Shown one piece after another: positions 1 through 28,633 of a stretch of DNA of 28,633 nt (positions are counted from its first letter, which is position 1; the number at the start of each line of letters is the position of its first letter). The notes under the pieces were generated by a model, which worked only from the letters and a program-made list of their open reading frames with translations, was not told the DNA's origin and searched no databases. Origin of the DNA: a virus; IMG/VR virus record IMGVR_UViG_3300031950_000010, positions 1-28,633 of that record. One strand, written 5' to 3'. The translations under genes and the position numbers were made by a program.

Positions 1-127
1 GCCGCATCATGGCTACTCAGTCGCCATCTTTCCCGCCGCCGCTCGCGCCGGCAGAGCTGATAGCCTTCTGTGCGCGCGTAGCGCCAGACAGTTGCCTCCA
101 CAACAGCACCATGTCCTGTTTCGGCAC
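1..127. repeat. Terminal overlap, left copy (circular contig)
   Basis: These 127 bases recur exactly at the right end of the window. A terminal repeat of 127 nt equals a common assembler k-mer length, so it is most simply read as the overlap of a circular (or circularly permuted) assembly rather than a biological terminal repeat. It includes the 3' end of the 110-aa gene, which therefore appears twice in the window but once in the genome. Confidence 0.9.
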
Positions 128-349
128 CTCCAGCGCACGGGCCAGCCGGAACGCGAGCGCCATGCGGTTGGTTTCGGCGCTGTACCGTTTGCTGCCCTCC
201 CGCAGAAGCTTCAACGCCATGTTGGCCTTTTCGATGGTTGCATCGTCCATCTGGCCGTCGAGCACAGCACGCACGTCGTTGAGTCCTCTCCGCGCGATGC
301 TGTCCAGCTCGCTGGTCAGAATTATCCCGTCATCTTTCTGGTTTGCCAT
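17..349 (-). CDS. 110-aa helical protein downstream of the Cas12-like gene
   Basis: I do not recognise a family. The protein is predicted to be mostly helical, with a hydrophilic, Gly/Ser/Asp-rich tail (about residues 97-110) and no Cys or membrane segment. The ATG at 349 has a strong Shine-Dalgarno site (GGAGG, 6 nt spacer) inside the last codons of the Cas12-like gene, and the two genes overlap by 20 nt, so translation is probably coupled. It is the last gene before the structured leader and CRISPR-like array on the circular map. Position and coupling make it a candidate accessory subunit or partner of the effector, but it could equally be an ordinary early phage protein. Its 3' end is repeated at the right edge of the window (28523-28633) because of the terminal overlap. 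Confidence 0.75.
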   Translation of the reverse strand: MANQKDDGIILTSELDSIARRGLNDVRAVLDGQMDDATIEKANMALKLLREGSKRYSAETNRMALAFRLARALEVPKQDMVLLWRQLSGATRAQKAISSAGASGGGKDGD

Positions 350-1718
350 TTTCTACCTCCGTGAGTTGATAAGAAATTTCTCTCAAGGCTTCGCGGCGCT
401 TTTTGGCTCGCGCCGACCGCCGGCGCAGCTCGCTCTCTGCCGCCCGCTTGCCAGGCTCGGTTGTCACGTCAGCGCCAGCCGTGACGGTGATGCCATACTC
501 ATCGGCCTTGTACGCCAGCAGCTGGCGGAACTGCGCCGCAGGCCAGGCCAGAGCGCCGATCTCGGCGATCTCGATCGTGCCGACAAGTTGAGATCGGCAC
601 CACTGCACGATATCAGCGGTCCAGCGATGCAGGTAGTCGCGCAGCCAGTCCTGCCAGCCCAGCCGCGCGATCGCCTCGCGCTTTCTACGAGCGTGCCCTT
701 TGCGCCGGCCACATTGTGCCAGTACGCGCCGGCGAATTAGATCCCAGTCATCCGATCGCCGCAGCAGGTACTGATAGCGGTCCGTATAGCACTTAGTCTG
801 CGTCTCGGTGCGGACGAGGAACCTGCCGTCGTCCGTCACAGAGATCACGGCGCGGCGCTCGCCAGGCGGCGGCAGGGGCGGCAGAGTCAGCGGATACGTG
901 ATTCGCACCGTGATGCCGCGCCGCTCGACGTGCACCGTCGCTTTCTTCATTGGGATTTCCCAGCGCAGCATCTTGTCTAGAATCGGTCCCTGCCATTCGT
1001 CGCGCGCGGAACCGCGCTTGATCGGAATTTCGATCCACGATCCGCGCAGATCTTTGTGCGACCGAGCGCGCAGTCTCACCACGTACTCGTCGCCGCGCTT
1101 GACGAGCTGGACGCCGGAGTCCTCGCGCCTCGCCTTGCCGGTGACGGACAAAGCAGCATCTGGTCGCCATTCCGGCAACGGCGCGCCGGCGAGGATGCGC
1201 TTGCCCTCGCGCGTCCACACGCCCTGAACCTCCATCTCCGCAGCGCTGTAGGCGTCGCCCGACAGCTCGCCTTTCTCGCGCTGGCGCACCGCTTTGCTCG
1301 GACCGGCCTTGTCGTCCGGCGCGGACGGGGATGTCCAGCCGTAGGCCTGCGCCCATTTCGCGCGCAACATCATGTTGCGGTAGTGGGCCGCCTGCCATCC
1401 GAGATCGCGCAGCTCGCGATACAGTTCGCGGTGCTCTGCATTGGACCAGTCCAGCGCGGCCCGCAGAGCGAGCACGCGCTGGACGGTCCTCGTCGCCCCA
1501 TTCGGGGCTTGCGACGGCATTTCCGCTGCCACGCCACGCGGCGGGTGCGAACCGCCTCGGTTGATATTTCTTTCGTGGTCGGCGTTTGGCGGTGCCGTCG
1601 CTGGCAAACCGCTGGAGCGCCCCTTGTAGAGCTCGGCGATTTTGCGCTCGATCTCCTGCATTGCTGCCGCCTGGCGCTCCACAGCGCGGAGTGCGAGGTT
1701 AAGGTCAGTTTCCGCCAT
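330..1718 (-). CDS. Miniature Cas12/TnpB-like protein, probably RuvC-inactive (type V effector candidate)
   Basis: This is a 462-aa protein. Residues 1-30 form a short helix, 34-75 are low complexity, and 80-130 are a helical segment with R/W/Y residues as in Cas12f-type recognition regions. Residues 200-280 are basic and beta-rich (wedge-like), and 289-412 are RuvC-like. Compared from memory with Un1Cas12f1, the stretch RRRVLAQCGRRKGHARRK, the helix HRWTADIVQWCRSQLVG and the segments before YGITV follow the same order as RuvC-I to post-RuvC-II. The catalytic residues look lost: RuvC-I has only VTDDG (D296/D297) instead of GIDxG; the RuvC-II stretch reads TIEIAEI, with Ala385 where Glu is expected; and the chain ends in an Arg-rich tail without CxxC zinc ribbon or RuvC-III Asp. 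It starts TGATG-coupled to the 50-aa gene, with GGAG 8 nt upstream. With the array across the circle junction it suggests an RNA-guided binder. The alternative is a domesticated TnpB remnant. Confidence 0.75.
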   Translation of the reverse strand: MAETDLNLALRAVERQAAAMQEIERKIAELYKGRSSGLPATAPPNADHERNINRGGSHPPRGVAAEMPSQAPNGATRTVQRVLALRAALDWSNAEHRELYRELRDLGWQAAHYRNMMLRAKWAQAYGWTSPSAPDDKAGPSKAVRQREKGELSGDAYSAAEMEVQGVWTREGKRILAGAPLPEWRPDAALSVTGKARREDSGVQLVKRGDEYVVRLRARSHKDLRGSWIEIPIKRGSARDEWQGPILDKMLRWEIPMKKATVHVERRGITVRITYPLTLPPLPPPGERRAVISVTDDGRFLVRTETQTKCYTDRYQYLLRRSDDWDLIRRRVLAQCGRRKGHARRKREAIARLGWQDWLRDYLHRWTADIVQWCRSQLVGTIEIAEIGALAWPAAQFRQLLAYKADEYGITVTAGADVTTEPGKRAAESELRRRSARAKKRREALREISYQLTEVENGKPER

Positions 1719-1870
1719 CAGAATTTCTCCAACAGTAAGAGCACAATGGCCGCGGTTTCAATGCTCAGAGCTGTTACTGCCGCGGCTAACAACGCCACCA
1801 GCCTTTTCTCGCGCTCGCGGGCGCGATGCAGTTGGAACCAAGTCCTGACATCGTCGTATTGGACGTTCAT
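1718..1870 (-). CDS. 50-aa single-pass membrane protein
   Basis: The ATG at 1870 has a clear GGAGG site 6 nt upstream, so it is preferred over the longer open frame starting at 1945. Residues 1-22 are charged (many R/E), and residues about 24-47 form one hydrophobic helix rich in A, V and L. Topology would be N-in. The stop codon overlaps the start codon of the Cas12-like gene (TGATG), so the two are translationally coupled and made in related amounts. It has no recognisable family. It may be a small early membrane protein, or it may tether or accompany the effector; the sequence does not decide. Confidence 0.7.
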   Translation of the reverse strand: MNVQYDDVRTWFQLHRAREREKRLVALLAAAVTALSIETAAIVLLLLEKF

Positions 1871-1872
1871 GA

Positions 1873-2094
1873 TTACCTCCCGTATTCTCCGCATCGTTGA
1901 ATGTGTCGGATGAACTGAGCTACGCCAGACAGGTACACGCCGCATCGGCAGTATCCGGCAGCGGAACGCAGCTGCTCGACCGCCGCGGCGATTCGGAAAT
2001 CACGCGCGCAGTCCTCGCACAGAGGTGCTGCGCCATCGAGGCGGCCCCACGCCTTCGTGATCTCCATGCCACAGCGCATGCAATTCCTTTGCAT
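1873..2094 (-). CDS. 73-aa zinc-ribbon protein
   Basis: The protein carries two CxxC knuckles near the N-terminus (CMRCG at residues 5-9 and CEDC at 26-29) and a second Cys/His group near the C-terminus (CRCG, then H and C), so it probably binds one or two zinc ions. The start at 2094 follows a GGAGG site. It lies in the leftward early operon, immediately after the PDDEXK gene and 2 nt before the 50-aa gene. Such small zinc proteins in phage early regions often bind nucleic acids or RNA polymerase, but no specific function can be assigned here. Confidence 0.7.
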   Translation of the reverse strand: MQRNCMRCGMEITKAWGRLDGAAPLCEDCARDFRIAAAVEQLRSAAGYCRCGVYLSGVAQFIRHIQRCGEYGR

Positions 2095-5041: not shown

Positions 5042-5248
5042 CTACTGCTCCTGCCGGATCGCTCCGAACTGGAGTTCTGCGGCGCGAGCCGCGGCTGCCT
5101 CCAGGATCCGCTTGGAGACCGCGCGGCCCTTGAGAACTTGGCTGACGGTGGTGGGCGTTACGCCGAGTTGCCTGGCGAGGCGGCCGATCTCGCCGCGATT
5201 GCGAAGGAGAACGCGCCTTATTTTCGTTAGGCTTATCTCTTGGCTCAT
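5042..5248 (-). CDS. Small HTH (Cro/LacI-like) DNA-binding regulator
   Basis: This 68-aa protein has a clear helix-turn-helix at about residues 15-40 (GEIGRLARQLGVTPTTVSQVLKG), followed by a helical dimerisation segment rich in Ala and Glu. It lacks the extra domain of full CI-type repressors. It is the first gene of the leftward operon and faces the divergent anti-CRISPR operon, so it probably sets the balance between the two programs by binding the TCTCTT sites of the intergenic region. The ATG at 5248 is chosen because it begins the folded domain and lies directly at the predicted transcription start; the longer frame to 5464 runs through the promoter and into the opposing gene. Confidence 0.85.
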   Translation of the reverse strand: MSQEISLTKIRRVLLRNRGEIGRLARQLGVTPTTVSQVLKGRAVSKRILEAAAARAAELQFGAIRQEQ

Positions 5249-5255
5249 CGCCTCT

Positions 5256-5284
5256 CTTATAAATCGTCTCCGCGAGGCCGTCAA
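5256..5284 (-). promoter_or_regulatory. Leftward early promoter (leaderless)
   Basis: On the minus strand, TTGACG (5284-5279) is followed after 17 nt by TATAAG (5261-5256), a near-consensus sigma-70-type promoter. The expected transcription start is about 5249, directly at the ATG of the HTH gene (5248), so the first mRNA would have essentially no leader. It should drive the whole leftward early operon, including recT and the Cas12-like gene. Confidence 0.7.
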
Positions 5285-5350
5285 GCCCCCCCCACGGAAG
5301 GAATTCACTAAGTGGTTGAAAACAAAAGAAAAAAAGTTGCAAGATTTCTC

Positions 5351-5379
5351 TTGACAAAAACCGCTAGTTGTTTTAAGAG
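5351..5379 (+). promoter_or_regulatory. Rightward promoter of the AcrIII-1 operon
   Basis: A perfect TTGACA (5351-5356) is separated by 17 nt from TAAGAG (5374-5379). The predicted transcript starts near 5386, followed by the strong ribosome binding site GGAGG (5391-5395) and the ATG at 5400. The promoter sits inside an imperfect palindrome (5347-5380), consistent with repression by the divergent HTH protein. Confidence 0.65.
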
Positions 5380-5399
5380 AGAAAGTGAAAGGAGGAAAT

Positions 5400-5783
5400 A
5401 TGATCATCGCGAACGCAGTTTCTCTAAACATGATCCCGCCGGATGTGACGTCCGGCGGGATCATCTTCAGGCGGATCAGCCTGACCGAGGCTCAGCGCCT
5501 CGTCCGCGAAGCAAACGAGATCGTGTCCGCGATTGGGCACGCGGACACGGCCCGTCTGGTTGGCCGGCAGCTCGGCGTCGAGCTCCAGGCCGACCGCCGT
5601 ACCGTCTTCCTGGGTGACGAGCTCACGCTCGTCGCCCAGTATGTGGGTCCCCGCCTCCCTGAGGGAACGACCGAGCTCCCTCGGGGGGCGCGGATCGAGT
5701 GGTTCTTGGTTCGCCTCGCGACCGGCGAGGAGCTCGCCGGTCGGGGCGACATGGTTTTCTATCCACAGGGGGCTGGGAGCTAA
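5400..5783 (+). CDS. acrIII-1: AcrIII-1 (DUF1874) viral ring nuclease, anti-CRISPR
   Basis: This 127-aa protein belongs to the DUF1874 family (SIRV1 gp29, STIV B116), which degrades the cyclic tetra-adenylate second messenger and so switches off the ancillary nucleases of type III CRISPR systems. Diagnostic segments are NAVSLNM near the N-terminus, SAIGHADTARLVGRQLG with His47, the basic ADRRTVFL strand, GDELTLVAQ, and GPRLPEGTTEL with Arg85 and Glu88. His47 and Glu88 fall at the same numbers as the residues reported as catalytic in SIRV1 gp29. The protein is slightly longer at its C-terminus. It heads the rightward operon behind a strong promoter and ribosome site, as expected for a protein needed at once on infection. 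Its first codons contain a 14-bp perfect inverted repeat. Confidence 0.93.
   Translation: MIIANAVSLNMIPPDVTSGGIIFRRISLTEAQRLVREANEIVSAIGHADTARLVGRQLGVELQADRRTVFLGDELTLVAQYVGPRLPEGTTELPRGARIEWFLVRLATGEELAGRGDMVFYPQGAGS
5430..5464 (+). repeat. 14-bp perfect hairpin within the AcrIII-1 gene
   Basis: ATGATCCCGCCGGA (5430-5443) and its exact complement (5451-5464) flank a 7-nt loop. It lies 30 nt after the start codon and encodes residues 11-22. In RNA it would be very stable and could slow or gate early elongation; in DNA it could extrude as a cruciform or act as a protein site. It is the strongest of many inverted repeats in this operon. Confidence 0.9.
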
Positions 5784-7954: not shown

Positions 7955-8176
7955 ATGAAATACGTGAGATTCCAACGTAACGGCAGGCAATACGAATTTG
8001 CCTGCGATAGCTATGGGTACGGTTTGTTCTATCGAGATGAGCGCGACTGGGGATCGTACCATCAGTTTTTGGGGAGCTGCCAGACCCCAAAATTCGAGTC
8101 CCCCGAACAGTTCATCCGGTGGATCCGGCGACGGTACCACCGGCCCGGCAGGGTCGTTGAGGTTCGCTGGGCGTGA
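7955..8176 (+). CDS. 73-aa hypothetical protein
   Basis: The start ATG at 7955 follows AAAGGAGG by 5 nt, one of the best ribosome sites in the window. The protein is aromatic- and Arg-rich (GYGLFYRDERDWGSYHQFLG; FIRWIRRRYHRP). It is probably a small alpha/beta fold that may contact nucleic acid, although no motif proves this. Three stems lie in it: 7983-8005 (8 bp), 8067-8092 (8 bp, TTTTGGGG arm) and 8116-8143 (7 bp). Confidence 0.7.
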   Translation: MKYVRFQRNGRQYEFACDSYGYGLFYRDERDWGSYHQFLGSCQTPKFESPEQFIRWIRRRYHRPGRVVEVRWA

Positions 8177-25457: not shown

Positions 25458-26099
25458 CTATGCGCTCTCACCATCGCGCATCTCCTCCACACAGATACGG
25501 GCGCTTTTCCAGTTTTCGGCGCGCCGGCGCGTCGCCGCGCTATATGGGACAACAGATGTCTCCAGCCACTGCTCGCGCGCGAGGCGAGGTATCGCCGCCT
25601 CGATCATGAGGTCTGCCACCTCGTAGAGTACACGCCATGGGTACGTGGCAGGCCCCGGCACTCGAGTCGCCTGCCCGGCCATCGCGCGCACTAAAGAGCG
25701 CGCATCCAGCCGCACTCGGTGCGGTACGCGCGCCACCAGCATGTCTGCAGGTTCAACGATGGCTGGAACCTCCGTTTCGATTTTAGCGCCAGCCGGGTTT
25801 TCCGCGAAACATTTTTCGCCGGAATGATTTTTCGCGAGCATATTTTGCGCGAGAACATTTTTCGGCACAGATGATTTTTCGCGGCGCGTTTTTTCGGCAT
25901 GGCACTCGCGGCAGAGCGCCCACAGATTGGTGGCGTCCCAAAACAGCTCGCGCCGGCCTCGATGGGGCACGATGTGGTCCACCTCGACCGCTGGTACCAC
26001 GCGACCGGGATGCAGCCCGAATGGATCCGGGCACACCGGCTGGCGCGCGAGGATCAGCTCACGCACGCGCTGCCATCGCCGCCCCTTGCCGGTGCTCAT
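25458..26099 (-). CDS. HNH endonuclease beside the terminase genes
   Basis: The N-terminal part of this 213-aa protein has the HNH fold: C23, VEVDHIVPHRGRR (Asp41-His42), ATNLWALCRECHAEK (Asn58, C63, C66, His67), a zinc-stabilised nuclease motif. Residues 72-110 (SSVPKNVLAQNMLAKNHSGEKC...) are Lys/Asn-rich and encoded by T-tract repeats. The C-terminal half (MIEAAIPRLAREQWLETSVVPY) is helical and of unknown role. HNH enzymes next to terminase genes assist genome end cleavage in HK97-like phages. It starts at ATG 26099, overlapping the previous stop (ATGA). Confidence 0.85.
   Translation of the reverse strand: MSTGKGRRWQRVRELILARQPVCPDPFGLHPGRVVPAVEVDHIVPHRGRRELFWDATNLWALCRECHAEKTRREKSSVPKNVLAQNMLAKNHSGEKCFAENPAGAKIETEVPAIVEPADMLVARVPHRVRLDARSLVRAMAGQATRVPGPATYPWRVLYEVADLMIEAAIPRLAREQWLETSVVPYSAATRRRAENWKSARICVEEMRDGESA
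25798..25895. repeat. T-tract repeats at 15-17 nt spacing within the HNH gene
   Basis: On the plus strand ATTTTTCG-like units start at 25811, 25827, 25842 (ATTTTGCG), 25857, 25874 and 25889 (TTTTTTCGG), with a weaker one near 25798. Spacings are 16, 15, 15, 17 and 15 nt. Each is a short A/T tract followed by CGC or CGG in an otherwise GC-rich gene. They may be protein-binding iterons linked to DNA packaging or a relic of short-unit slippage. Confidence 0.6.
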
Positions 26100-26381: not shown

Positions 26382-26879
26382 TCAGCCGCGGAGGCCTGCC
26401 AGCGGCACCTTCAGCGATCCAACGATGGTCCTCTCTCCAGACGAGACGCGCTCCCGCAGCTCGAACTTCTGGGGGGCGTACCGCATCTGCCAGTGCCGGC
26501 GGCAGCAGCCTTCCATGACAGCCGGCATCGGGCACCCGCGCTCGGCGCACCGTGTCGCCGGAGTCTCGGTCGGCGTCGGATGGCAAGCCCGCTGCAGTGA
26601 TGTCATGAAATCGAGCGCGCGCTTGATGATCGGCGCGACCATCTGTGGTGTCTCTCTCGCGATGGCCAGGTAGTACATCACGGACGTGTGATGCCGAAAG
26701 CCAAGCCGACGGCCTATCTGCTTCAGGCTCATGCCGCGCTCGCGGAGTAGCGCGGCAGCCGCGATGCGAGCGATGACGGCACTCCGCTGGCGGCTTTGCG
26801 ACAGCACCACGTCGATGCCAACCTCAGCAGCGAAAGCGCAAGCGAGCACGCAGAGCTTGGATTCGAGCTCGCTTCTCAT
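26382..26879 (-). CDS. DnaA domain IV-like DNA-binding protein
   Basis: This is a 165-aa protein. Residues 27-75 read SQSRQRSAVIARIAAAALLRERGMSLKQIGRRLGFRHHTSVMYYLAIARE, which has the layout of the DnaA C-terminal domain: the helix before, IG-x-x-x-G at the turn, and the R-x-H-T-(S/T)-V signature that contacts DnaA boxes. A Cys/His knuckle (C111, C116, C125/C126, H129) follows near the C-terminus. It lacks the DnaA AAA+ part, so it probably competes with or recruits host DnaA, or binds the phage origin. It is coupled to the replication initiator gene (ATGA) immediately upstream. Confidence 0.8.
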   Translation of the reverse strand: MRSELESKLCVLACAFAAEVGIDVVLSQSRQRSAVIARIAAAALLRERGMSLKQIGRRLGFRHHTSVMYYLAIARETPQMVAPIIKRALDFMTSLQRACHPTPTETPATRCAERGCPMPAVMEGCCRRHWQMRYAPQKFELRERVSSGERTIVGSLKVPLAGLRG

Positions 26880-27889
26880 GTTGCGACGTCCTCACCGCGT
26901 TTTCGGCATGCGCACGGCACGATAGTATCACGGAACTCGTATACCGTCTCGCCGCATCGCGGACACGCGCCGGAGTCTCGCAAATCCCAGCGTGAGTCGT
27001 GAGCATGATTGCTGCGCACCCAATCGGGAAGATCGGTGATGGCCTTCAAGAACAGACCATCGCTCCGCGGTGGTGATGCTCTGGAGCGGTGCCGGATCCA
27101 GCCGAGCACGTACCGCGGATGGATGCCCATGCTGGCAGCCTGCCTGGCGAGCGCGAGCGCCGATCCTGCTCGCGGGGGACGACCAACAGCCGCTGAAATC
27201 TCCTGCTCAACAGCCAGGATCCAGTCCAGATGCCGGCCGATGCTCATGCCGTTGTTGCGATTGTCAACAAACAAAGCCGAGCCGGCAGTTTGCTGATCCG
27301 GATCCGGTGCGGTCGGTTCGGCTGGCTCCGGCTCTGGCTTTGGCTGTGGCTCGGCTACGGCTTGGCTATGGCTATGGCTACGGCTACGGCTACGGCTATG
27401 GCAGTGCGCACACTGTGCGCTCTCCGTGCGCTCGGCGTGCGCATGCTGTGCGCTCGGCGTGCGCTCGGCGTGCGCATGCCGTGTATCTTCCGTGCGCTCG
27501 GCATGCGCACGCCGGTCCGATTTTGCGAGTCTGGATGATCGAGGCGGCCGGCCGTCGGCAAACGACTGGCCCGCCCTGGCGAGCCTGGTGTGGACCGAAT
27601 CCTCGGCATGGTCTGCCCAATCGTGAACCACGAGCCGGTGCTCCTCGTGCGGGTCGAGCAGCCTACACTCGATCAGAGCCTCGATGAGCTCTCGTGACGG
27701 TCGGTCCTCTGGCCAGGCGCAGGCCTCCGCGATCTCGTCATCGGTATAGCGCCCGATGTCGCCGCGCGGGCAGTACTGCGCGGTGAAATGCCAGAGCATC
27801 TCCAGGATGCCCACGGCCCATGCCCGGTTGATCCGGAGCCTGCGCGCAAGCGCGCGAATTTTGGGGTGATCAGGGGTCCCTCGTTTCAC
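26876..27889 (-). CDS. Replication initiator (phage replisome organiser)
   Basis: This is a 337-aa protein. Residues 1-90 (HPKIRALARRLRINRAWAVGILEMLWHFTAQYCPRGDIGRYTDDEIAEACAWP...LIEALIECRLLD) form the winged-helix N-terminal domain of phage replisome organiser/O-like proteins. Residues 120-200 are a low-complexity linker with three 11-residue AHAERT repeats (128-160) and a Ser/Arg/His stretch. Residues 225-300 look like a helical helicase-loader interaction region, and a C-terminal CPRCG/CAC zinc ribbon follows (about 304-330). It starts at GTG 27889 with GAGGG upstream, just after the CRISPR-like array in the transcription direction. Confidence 0.82.
   Translation of the reverse strand: MKRGTPDHPKIRALARRLRINRAWAVGILEMLWHFTAQYCPRGDIGRYTDDEIAEACAWPEDRPSRELIEALIECRLLDPHEEHRLVVHDWADHAEDSVHTRLARAGQSFADGRPPRSSRLAKSDRRAHAERTEDTRHAHAERTPSAQHAHAERTESAQCAHCHSRSRSRSHSHSQAVAEPQPKPEPEPAEPTAPDPDQQTAGSALFVDNRNNGMSIGRHLDWILAVEQEISAAVGRPPRAGSALALARQAASMGIHPRYVLGWIRHRSRASPPRSDGLFLKAITDLPDWVRSNHAHDSRWDLRDSGACPRCGETVYEFRDTIVPCACRKRGEDVAT
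27322..27512. repeat. Iteron-like repeats inside the initiator gene, candidate origin
   Basis: A 21-nt unit beginning GTGCGCTCGGCGTGCGCAT occurs at 27426-27446 and 27459-27479 and, with two changes, at 27492-27512, exactly 33 nt apart. Next to it (about 27322-27402) lie many GGCTAC/GGCTAT-type hexamers. An AT-richer palindrome, TTGTTG...CAACAA, is at 27252-27270. In lambda the origin iterons lie in the linker-coding part of gene O; this layout is closely parallel. Confidence 0.6.
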
Positions 27890-27928: not shown

Positions 27929-28450
27929 CTCGCACTCCACGATGAATCCCGCATTCGATGCGAACCGGTCAAGGAGAGGGGCCGAGTGACCGGCTACCAC
28001 TCGCACTCCACGACAAATCCTTAGGTCGATGCGACGGCCTGACCAGTACAGATCGGGGTAGTAGAAGCCTCGCACTCCACGGCAAACTCCTCATTCGATG
28101 CGACCTGCGCACGGTGGGGCAAATCATCCTCGCACTCCACGATGAATCTTGCATTCGATGCGACGGCGACATTCTGGTTGGCCGGGTGGTTGCCTACCAT
28201 CTCGCACTCCACGATGAATCCCGAATTCGATGCGACGCTGAAACTGCGAACTGGAGGGAAGCAGGAATGATTCTCGCACTCCACGACGAATCCCCCGCTC
28301 GATGCGACGCGCCGTCCATCTCGGGGCAAAAGCGGCACTCGATCTCGCACTCCACGACAAGTTCCCCATTCGTTGCGACACGCGCCAACCACGCCGCACT
28401 TACCTGATCATAAGCTCGCACTCCACGACAAGTTCCCCATTCGTTGCGAC
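27929..28450 (-). CRISPR. Phage-borne CRISPR-like array, eight 36-nt repeats
   Basis: Repeats lie at 27929-27964, 28000-28035, 28069-28104, 28129-28164, 28201-28236, 28273-28308, 28344-28379 and 28415-28450. The seven spacers are 35, 33, 24, 36, 36, 35 and 35 nt and all differ. On the plus strand every repeat begins CTCGCACTCCACG and ends TGCGAC (TGCGAA in the first); the middle 17 positions vary. Read on the minus strand the repeats run GTCGCA...CGTGGAGTGCGAG, with complementary ends (TCGCA/TGCGA), reminiscent of type V-F repeats that begin GTTGCA and end TGCAAC. The last two copies are identical, and degeneracy grows toward 27929, so the leader end is probably at 28450 with minus-strand transcription, the same direction as the Cas12-like gene. 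No adaptation genes are present. This block is the only long stretch without a gene. Confidence 0.88.
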
Positions 28451-28507
28451 GGCCTCTCGGCAACTCATCGTCGCACAGCAGCTTGCGGACGAGAATGCGA
28501 GAGGCCG
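28450..28507 (-). ncRNA. Structured leader with possible anti-repeat (tracr-like) next to the array
   Basis: On the minus strand CGGCCTCTCG pairs perfectly with CGAGAGGCCG (10 bp). After a small internal loop, CTCGTC pairs with GATGAG (one GU), then CGCA with TGCG, closing an 8-nt loop. The segment ACGATGAGTT (plus-strand 28471-28462) can pair with the repeat segments AACTTGTCGT (repeats 7, 8), GATTCATCGT (1, 4, 5) and GATTCGTCGT (6) over 10 positions using 2-3 GU pairs, so pairing survives the repeat variation. It lies between the 110-aa gene and the first repeat. Confidence 0.5.
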
Positions 28508-28633
28508 CCGCATCATGGCTACTCAGTCGCCATCTTTCCCGCCGCCGCTCGCGCCGGCAGAGCTGATAGCCTTCTGTGCGCGCGTAGCGCCAGACAGTTG
28601 CCTCCACAACAGCACCATGTCCTGTTTCGGCAC
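28507..28633. repeat. Terminal overlap, right copy
   Basis: This segment is identical to bases 1-127. It contains the junction side of the leader region and a second copy of the 3' end of the 110-aa gene (28523-28633, minus strand, truncated by the window edge). On the circular genome, base 28506 is followed by base 1. Confidence 0.9.

Follow-up and report, generated by a model that had tools for sequence, protein, structure and literature searches.

The stretch analyzed here, hereafter the window, is the 28,633-nucleotide viral record IMGVR_UViG_3300031950_000010, which carries a clustered regularly interspaced short palindromic repeats (CRISPR) array close to a gene encoding a Cas12-like effector on the same strand. 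The window begins and ends with the same 127 bases; the genome is thus circular or terminally redundant, with a size of about 28,506 bp. On the circular map, exactly one gene (17-349, minus strand) lies between the Cas12-like gene and the array, in line with a sequence-only reading of this DNA made earlier. The early operon on the minus strand starts with exonuclease and RecT genes and ends with the Cas12-like gene, a gene for a protein of 110 amino acids, a leader hairpin, the array and a replication initiator gene, in that order. Two close relatives of the effector were found among the viral contigs scanned, L008 (on a 21.7-kb contig) and L009 (on a 42-kb contig). The features considered below are the following.

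27929-28450, minus strand: CRISPR array of eight 36-nt repeats and seven spacers, with the leader at the 28450 end.
330-1718, minus strand: Cas12-like effector gene, 462 amino acids, RuvC motifs and zinc ribbon apparently lost.
27965-27999, minus strand: spacer 7, matching at 31 of 35 positions a helicase/primase gene beside a CHC2 primase gene in a mobile element of genome G085.
28105-28128, minus strand: spacer 5, 24 nt, matching at 20 of 24 positions a DnaB helicase gene that is also matched by spacer 3 of L008.
28446-28512, minus strand: leader hairpin whose outer stem measures about 15 bp (arms 28498-28512 and 28445-28459), with a further paired extension inside.
17-349, minus strand: small conserved gene, 110 amino acids, predicted to be all-helical; its start overlaps the 3' end of the effector gene, and part of it recurs at 28523-28633 owing to the terminal overlap.
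26876-27889, minus strand: gene for a replication initiation protein, immediately after the array (phrog_9474, E = 5e-19).

The eight 36-nt repeats and unique spacers of the earlier reading are present as described, and its period of about 71 nt holds except at one 24-nt spacer, where the spacing falls to 60 nt (start-to-start distances, in order: 71, 69, 60, 72, 72, 71 and 71 nt). Read along the minus strand, which is the CRISPR RNA (crRNA) sense, the seven spacers are all distinct and measure 35, 35, 36, 36, 24, 33 and 35 nt, so that the locus has the direct repeats (∼20-50 nt) and the comparably long, unique spacers expected of a CRISPR array. Eight copies of the 12-mer CTCGCACTCCAC are present in the 1134-bp region, while no 12-mer exceeded two copies when this region was shuffled (n = 500). 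Conservation along the minus-strand repeat is 93% at positions 1-12, 71% at positions 13-22 and 99% at positions 23-36, confirming that the repeat ends are conserved and complementary around a variable middle and that the 3' end is the most conserved part. An outer stem, TCGCA/TGCGA, is formed from the repeat ends in all six window repeat variants folded; the repeat at the 27929 end is the sole copy with an altered first base (TTCGCA). Rfam gave no match. In the window, L008 and L009 arrays alike, repeats 1 and 2 are identical and the subsequent ones have diverged. The leader was placed at the 28450 end on this basis, and the polarity of repeat decay suggests that new spacers are added there.

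The effectors of L008 and L009 are 87% and 86% identical to that of the window in the best segment, and 88% and 85% in the alignment. Both phages carry the 110-amino-acid gene, seen in these three phages only, followed by a leader and, at the corresponding position, an array whose repeats are related. This comparison of related phage contigs was a check proposed with the earlier reading, and not a single spacer proved to be common to the three arrays. The L008 phage shares 87% DNA identity with the window phage across 12 kb of common structural genes. L009, on the other hand, has the exonuclease-RecT-effector stretch in common with the window and almost nothing else in the parts compared, indicating that the module moves between phages. 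Five other viral contigs that matched one repeat-handle pattern were rejected, having neither array nor effector. Within L009, the last, decayed array repeat (8011-8049) overlaps the start region of the next gene and may now serve as a ribosome-binding site.

Since the replication initiator gene follows the array directly, the repeats might be viewed as iterons or another regulatory repeat of that gene. This explanation is barely credible given unique spacers that differ between relatives, the leader polarity and spacer matches elsewhere. A CRISPR array is supported instead, because no spacer is common to the relatives, the array is polarized from its leader, and four spacers from two arrays match mobile-element genes of Bryobacteraceae.

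The kinship of the neighboring gene with Cas12, proposed earlier from the letters and translations, is found by both sequence profile and fold search. The effector matches the guided_TnpB profile at E = 3.6e-6 (26.5 bits, under the curated cut-off of 100) and the PADLOC Cas12f profile at E = 2e-4. Profile-profile comparison aligned residues 207-415 with two TnpB proteins (probability 83%, E = 8.7e-6), the matching region being the WED-RuvC part of TnpB/Cas12. A structure model was built from three sequences and reached a mean predicted local distance difference test (pLDDT) score of 53. All 26 Foldseek matches of this model at E ≤ 0.001 are Cas12 or TnpB, the best being Cas12f (3.4e-8); their template modeling scores are low (0.12-0.26) and support the fold family only. 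The evidence for a type V system is thus weak but concordant: a single effector with a WED domain and a C-terminal, TnpB-related RuvC fold, encoded beside an array. Searches of genome contigs, phages and plasmids gave no relatives of the effector, only a TnpB at E = 0.3, and two genomes gave weak matches (E = 0.003 and 9e-4) limited to N-terminal parts.

Beyond what the earlier reading had proposed, the effector appears to be nuclease-dead. The GVDLG motif of TnpB RuvC-I falls at a gap in the effector alignment, and the catalytic Glu of RuvC-II faces Ala385 in an alignment to a Cas12f1 structure sequence (E = 0.17, used for register only). Past residue 415, where the zinc ribbon and the RuvC-III Asp of TnpB are located, no alignment is obtained. 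These losses are common to all three relatives, and the Asp-Glu-Asp set of an active RuvC domain is not found; cutting activity has therefore likely been lost, judging by these alignments. Alternatively, an active type V nuclease might cut rival DNA with acidic positions that have moved or been replaced, for instance Asp297, Glu383 or Glu386, and Glu428. All four residues are invariant in the three relatives, and the structure model retains the RNase H-like order of strands. We nevertheless regard this alternative as unlikely, as the catalytic positions of RuvC-I and RuvC-II align with a gap and with Ala385, respectively, and no counterpart is seen for the zinc ribbon or the RuvC-III motif.

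Spacer targets, too, can be found. In a search of 237 Bryobacteraceae genomes, spacer 3 of L008 matched at 34 of 35 positions in genome G085 (E = 5.4e-10), in a DnaB helicase gene, and L008 spacer 1 matched the same genome at 33 of 34 positions (E = 1.9e-9). Window spacer 7 has its best match in G085 as well, on another contig (E = 1.5e-5 alone, 6.3e-7 with three flanking nt), and matches two further places at 29 of 35 positions; of the four mismatches in its best match, three fall at third codon positions. Across 18 kb of G085 contigs, the match count of each of these spacers (L008 spacers 1 and 3, window spacers 5 and 7) was attained in 0 of 1000 shuffles. The matched genes are the CHC2 primase, the adjoining phage-type helicase/primase-like gene and the DnaB helicase. 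A tyrosine integrase and a helix-turn-helix (HTH) regulator are also encoded on the contig matched by spacer 7, and transposase-related domains occur on the DnaB contig; because of this content, we infer that the target loci are integrated mobile elements. The target helicase gene is distributed patchily, occurring in 26 of the 237 genomes. The four matched strands comprise one sense and three antisense, a mixture pointing to a DNA target and not an RNA one. Both near-exact protospacers (L150 695-728 and L151 1507-1541) are followed by 3' CAGG, two cases being too few for a motif.

Elsewhere the spacers gave little. Matches to 50,697 phage and 72,556 plasmid records were at chance level, no match above 14 nt was found in 80 loci with related terminases, and 399 genomes of the class yielded nothing at E ≤ 0.001. 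Nor did a degenerate spacer-7 motif search or a search for the target helicase return anything from the viral contigs. The many short Bryobacteraceae matches of window spacer 4 were rejected: full-length agreement is only 20-26 of 36 positions, and the best G085 count does not exceed that of shuffles. As a suggestive observation only, L009 spacer 2 matches at 29 of 35 positions (L152 1500-1534) beside a prophage-like terminase gene in G151 (E = 8e-4 in the 237 genomes).

These targets also bear on two other roles for the Cas12-like protein. It could be a TldR-like regulator that tunes host or phage genes instead of fighting other elements; phages are known to encode nuclease-dead TnpB relatives with a role in transcriptional regulation (PMC13418256), and the array is part of the phage's own early operon. 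However, no spacer matches its own phage genome or those of the relatives beyond 13 nt, whereas four spacers match replication genes of mobile elements, and the complete difference in spacers between close relatives is unlike a fixed regulatory guide. We therefore consider such a regulator improbable. Less probable still is that the Cas12-like protein and its crRNAs act mainly as an anti-CRISPR decoy, mimicking host guides to occupy host effectors. Single repeats and inactivated Cas9 do serve phages as such decoys (PMC11656645, PMC10910872), and candidate host genomes encode Cas1. Yet the array has no strong match within the repeat in the 237 Bryobacteraceae genomes, and the spacers themselves match specific targets.

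The host clade was approached through L008, in which a tRNA-Val gene adjoins the integrase gene. A tRNA gene beside an integrase is a usual attachment site. A 43-nt piece of this tRNA-Val has 13 matches among genome contigs, all 13 titled Acidobacteriota or groups within, several of them Bryobacteraceae. This places the predicted host of L008 in the Acidobacteriota, and kinship with L008 suggests a host in the same clade for the window phage. The integrase and tRNA-Val attachment site of L008 (4383-5712) lie between genes that directly overlap in the window (1718-2094), and by this comparison the window phage seems to have no integrase. Consistent with the earlier description of an array without adaptation genes, Cas1 was not found in the window genome, L008 or L009; Cas2 was not searched for. 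Cas1 is encoded in two Bryobacteraceae genomes examined, one of which holds spacer targets. Since Cas1 was found in those two genomes and in none of the three viral records, spacers would be acquired in trans, with host machinery.

The leader hairpin takes the first 5-6 nt of the first repeat into its outer stem. Leader and first repeat together fold far more stably than shuffled sequences in the window (z = -4.0) and in L009 (z = -6.1). All three phages retain a consensus leader stem, in which one pair is clearly compensatory (G-C to A-U), the covariation from three sequences being slight. The hairpin contains CTCGCATTC, which by a pairing read by eye is able to pair with GAGTGCGAG of the repeat, as would be looked for in a trans-activating crRNA (tracrRNA), one mark of subtype V-F. 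It is possible that the hairpin is a guide-RNA cofactor or a regulatory element.

Elsewhere in the window, an HNH endonuclease gene (25458-26099, minus strand; PF01844, E = 4.7e-6) lies near the terminase genes. A gene for a STIV B116-like family protein (5385-5783, plus strand; PF08960, E = 6.4e-10), a family named after an archaeal virus protein, adjoins a predicted repressor gene on the opposite strand (5042-5464).

Taken together, we put the probability at roughly 70% that the window encodes a phage-borne, minimal, nuclease-dead type V system that binds rather than cuts the DNA of competing elements. The minus-strand early operon would supply one Cas12-like protein and crRNAs with the 3' repeat handle TCRTGGAGTGCGAG. 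Having kept the RuvC fold and lost the catalytic residues and the zinc ribbon, the protein would bind guide-matched DNA and leave it uncut, the bound complex blocking transcription or replication at the matched site. As the spacers appear aimed at replication genes of mobile elements integrated in Bryobacteraceae-like Acidobacteriota, the likely use would be competition with rivals in a shared cell. New spacers would enter at the leader end, probably via host Cas1-Cas2. Inactivated Cas12 proteins of V-C and V-M can interfere by binding (PMC12669027, PMC10442227, PMC11013384), and an active RuvC is not required of these inactivated subtypes (PMC12669027).

Several observations weigh against this interpretation. 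Five of the seven window spacers have no match, and the two that do reach 89% and 83%, short of an exact target. Most spacer matches trace to a single metagenome-assembled genome (G085), and no protospacer-adjacent motif is visible in the four matches (5' flanks AACG, GTCC, GTTC and CCTC). Near the array, no promoter or terminator was recognized on the coding strand. The host is derived via the relative L008 and not the window phage itself, and the weak structure model (mean pLDDT 53) leaves statements on RuvC residues dependent on alignments of a diverged protein.

A more far-reaching proposal is put forward tentatively. The system might be the first representative of a type V subtype confined to phages, in which Cas12 has shrunk to a RuvC scaffold that binds DNA and has no zinc ribbon, the 110-amino-acid protein is an obligate partner, the leader hairpin serves as a built-in guide-RNA cofactor, and host Cas1-Cas2 is borrowed to collect spacers against competing mobile elements. 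About 50 independent type V origins from TnpB have been inferred (PMC12669027), and the effector may represent another. No record of the effector protein turned up in either the phage or the plasmid collection, or in a partial library of papers. The effector and its setting appear to be new, while inactivated type V systems as such are already known (V-C and V-M). CRISPR systems are numerous in phages larger than 200 kb, which a review of mobile-element CRISPR sets against smaller phages (PMC11656645), and a unit of effector and array in a 28.5-kb phage is unusual. If silencing by binding alone proves true, this would be a very compact natural DNA binder and a case of virus-versus-element warfare with identifiable targets, as well as a test case for a virus filling its array with host adaptation machinery.

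Among known systems, V-M (Cas12m) resembles the window system in being a compact Cas12 without target cleavage that silences by DNA binding and is found on plasmids and some prophages (PMC11656645, PMC10442227, PMC11013384). Cas12m2, however, has an HCCC zinc finger and a non-canonical His/Asp/Asp site (PMC10442227), whereas the 462-amino-acid window effector lacks a zinc ribbon, was not matched by any Cas12m profile and shows neither Cas12m sequence nor a TNB-domain zinc finger. V-F/V-U3 (Cas12f and relatives) is closest by profile and fold search and similar in size, but the effector matches are weak, by sequence confined to the RuvC part (E = 2e-4 and 0.17), and the catalytic motifs and zinc ribbon are lost. 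TldR is likewise phage-encoded, TnpB-derived, nuclease-dead and RNA-guided (PMC13418256); in place of a single guide RNA beside the gene and a host gene target, the window system has a multi-spacer array, fast spacer turnover and mobile-element targets. In CasMu-V, a Cas12 with Mu transposase, Cas12 is inactivated by loss of the RuvC-III region (PMC10910872), whereas no transposase was found among the window proteins scanned with Pfam (a part of the open reading frames) and relatives of the large terminase point to an ordinary tailed phage. Finally, phage CRISPR mini-arrays against related viruses are also virus-borne guides aimed at competitors (PMC11656645), but their repeats equal those of the host and depend on host effectors, whereas the window phage brings its own effector.
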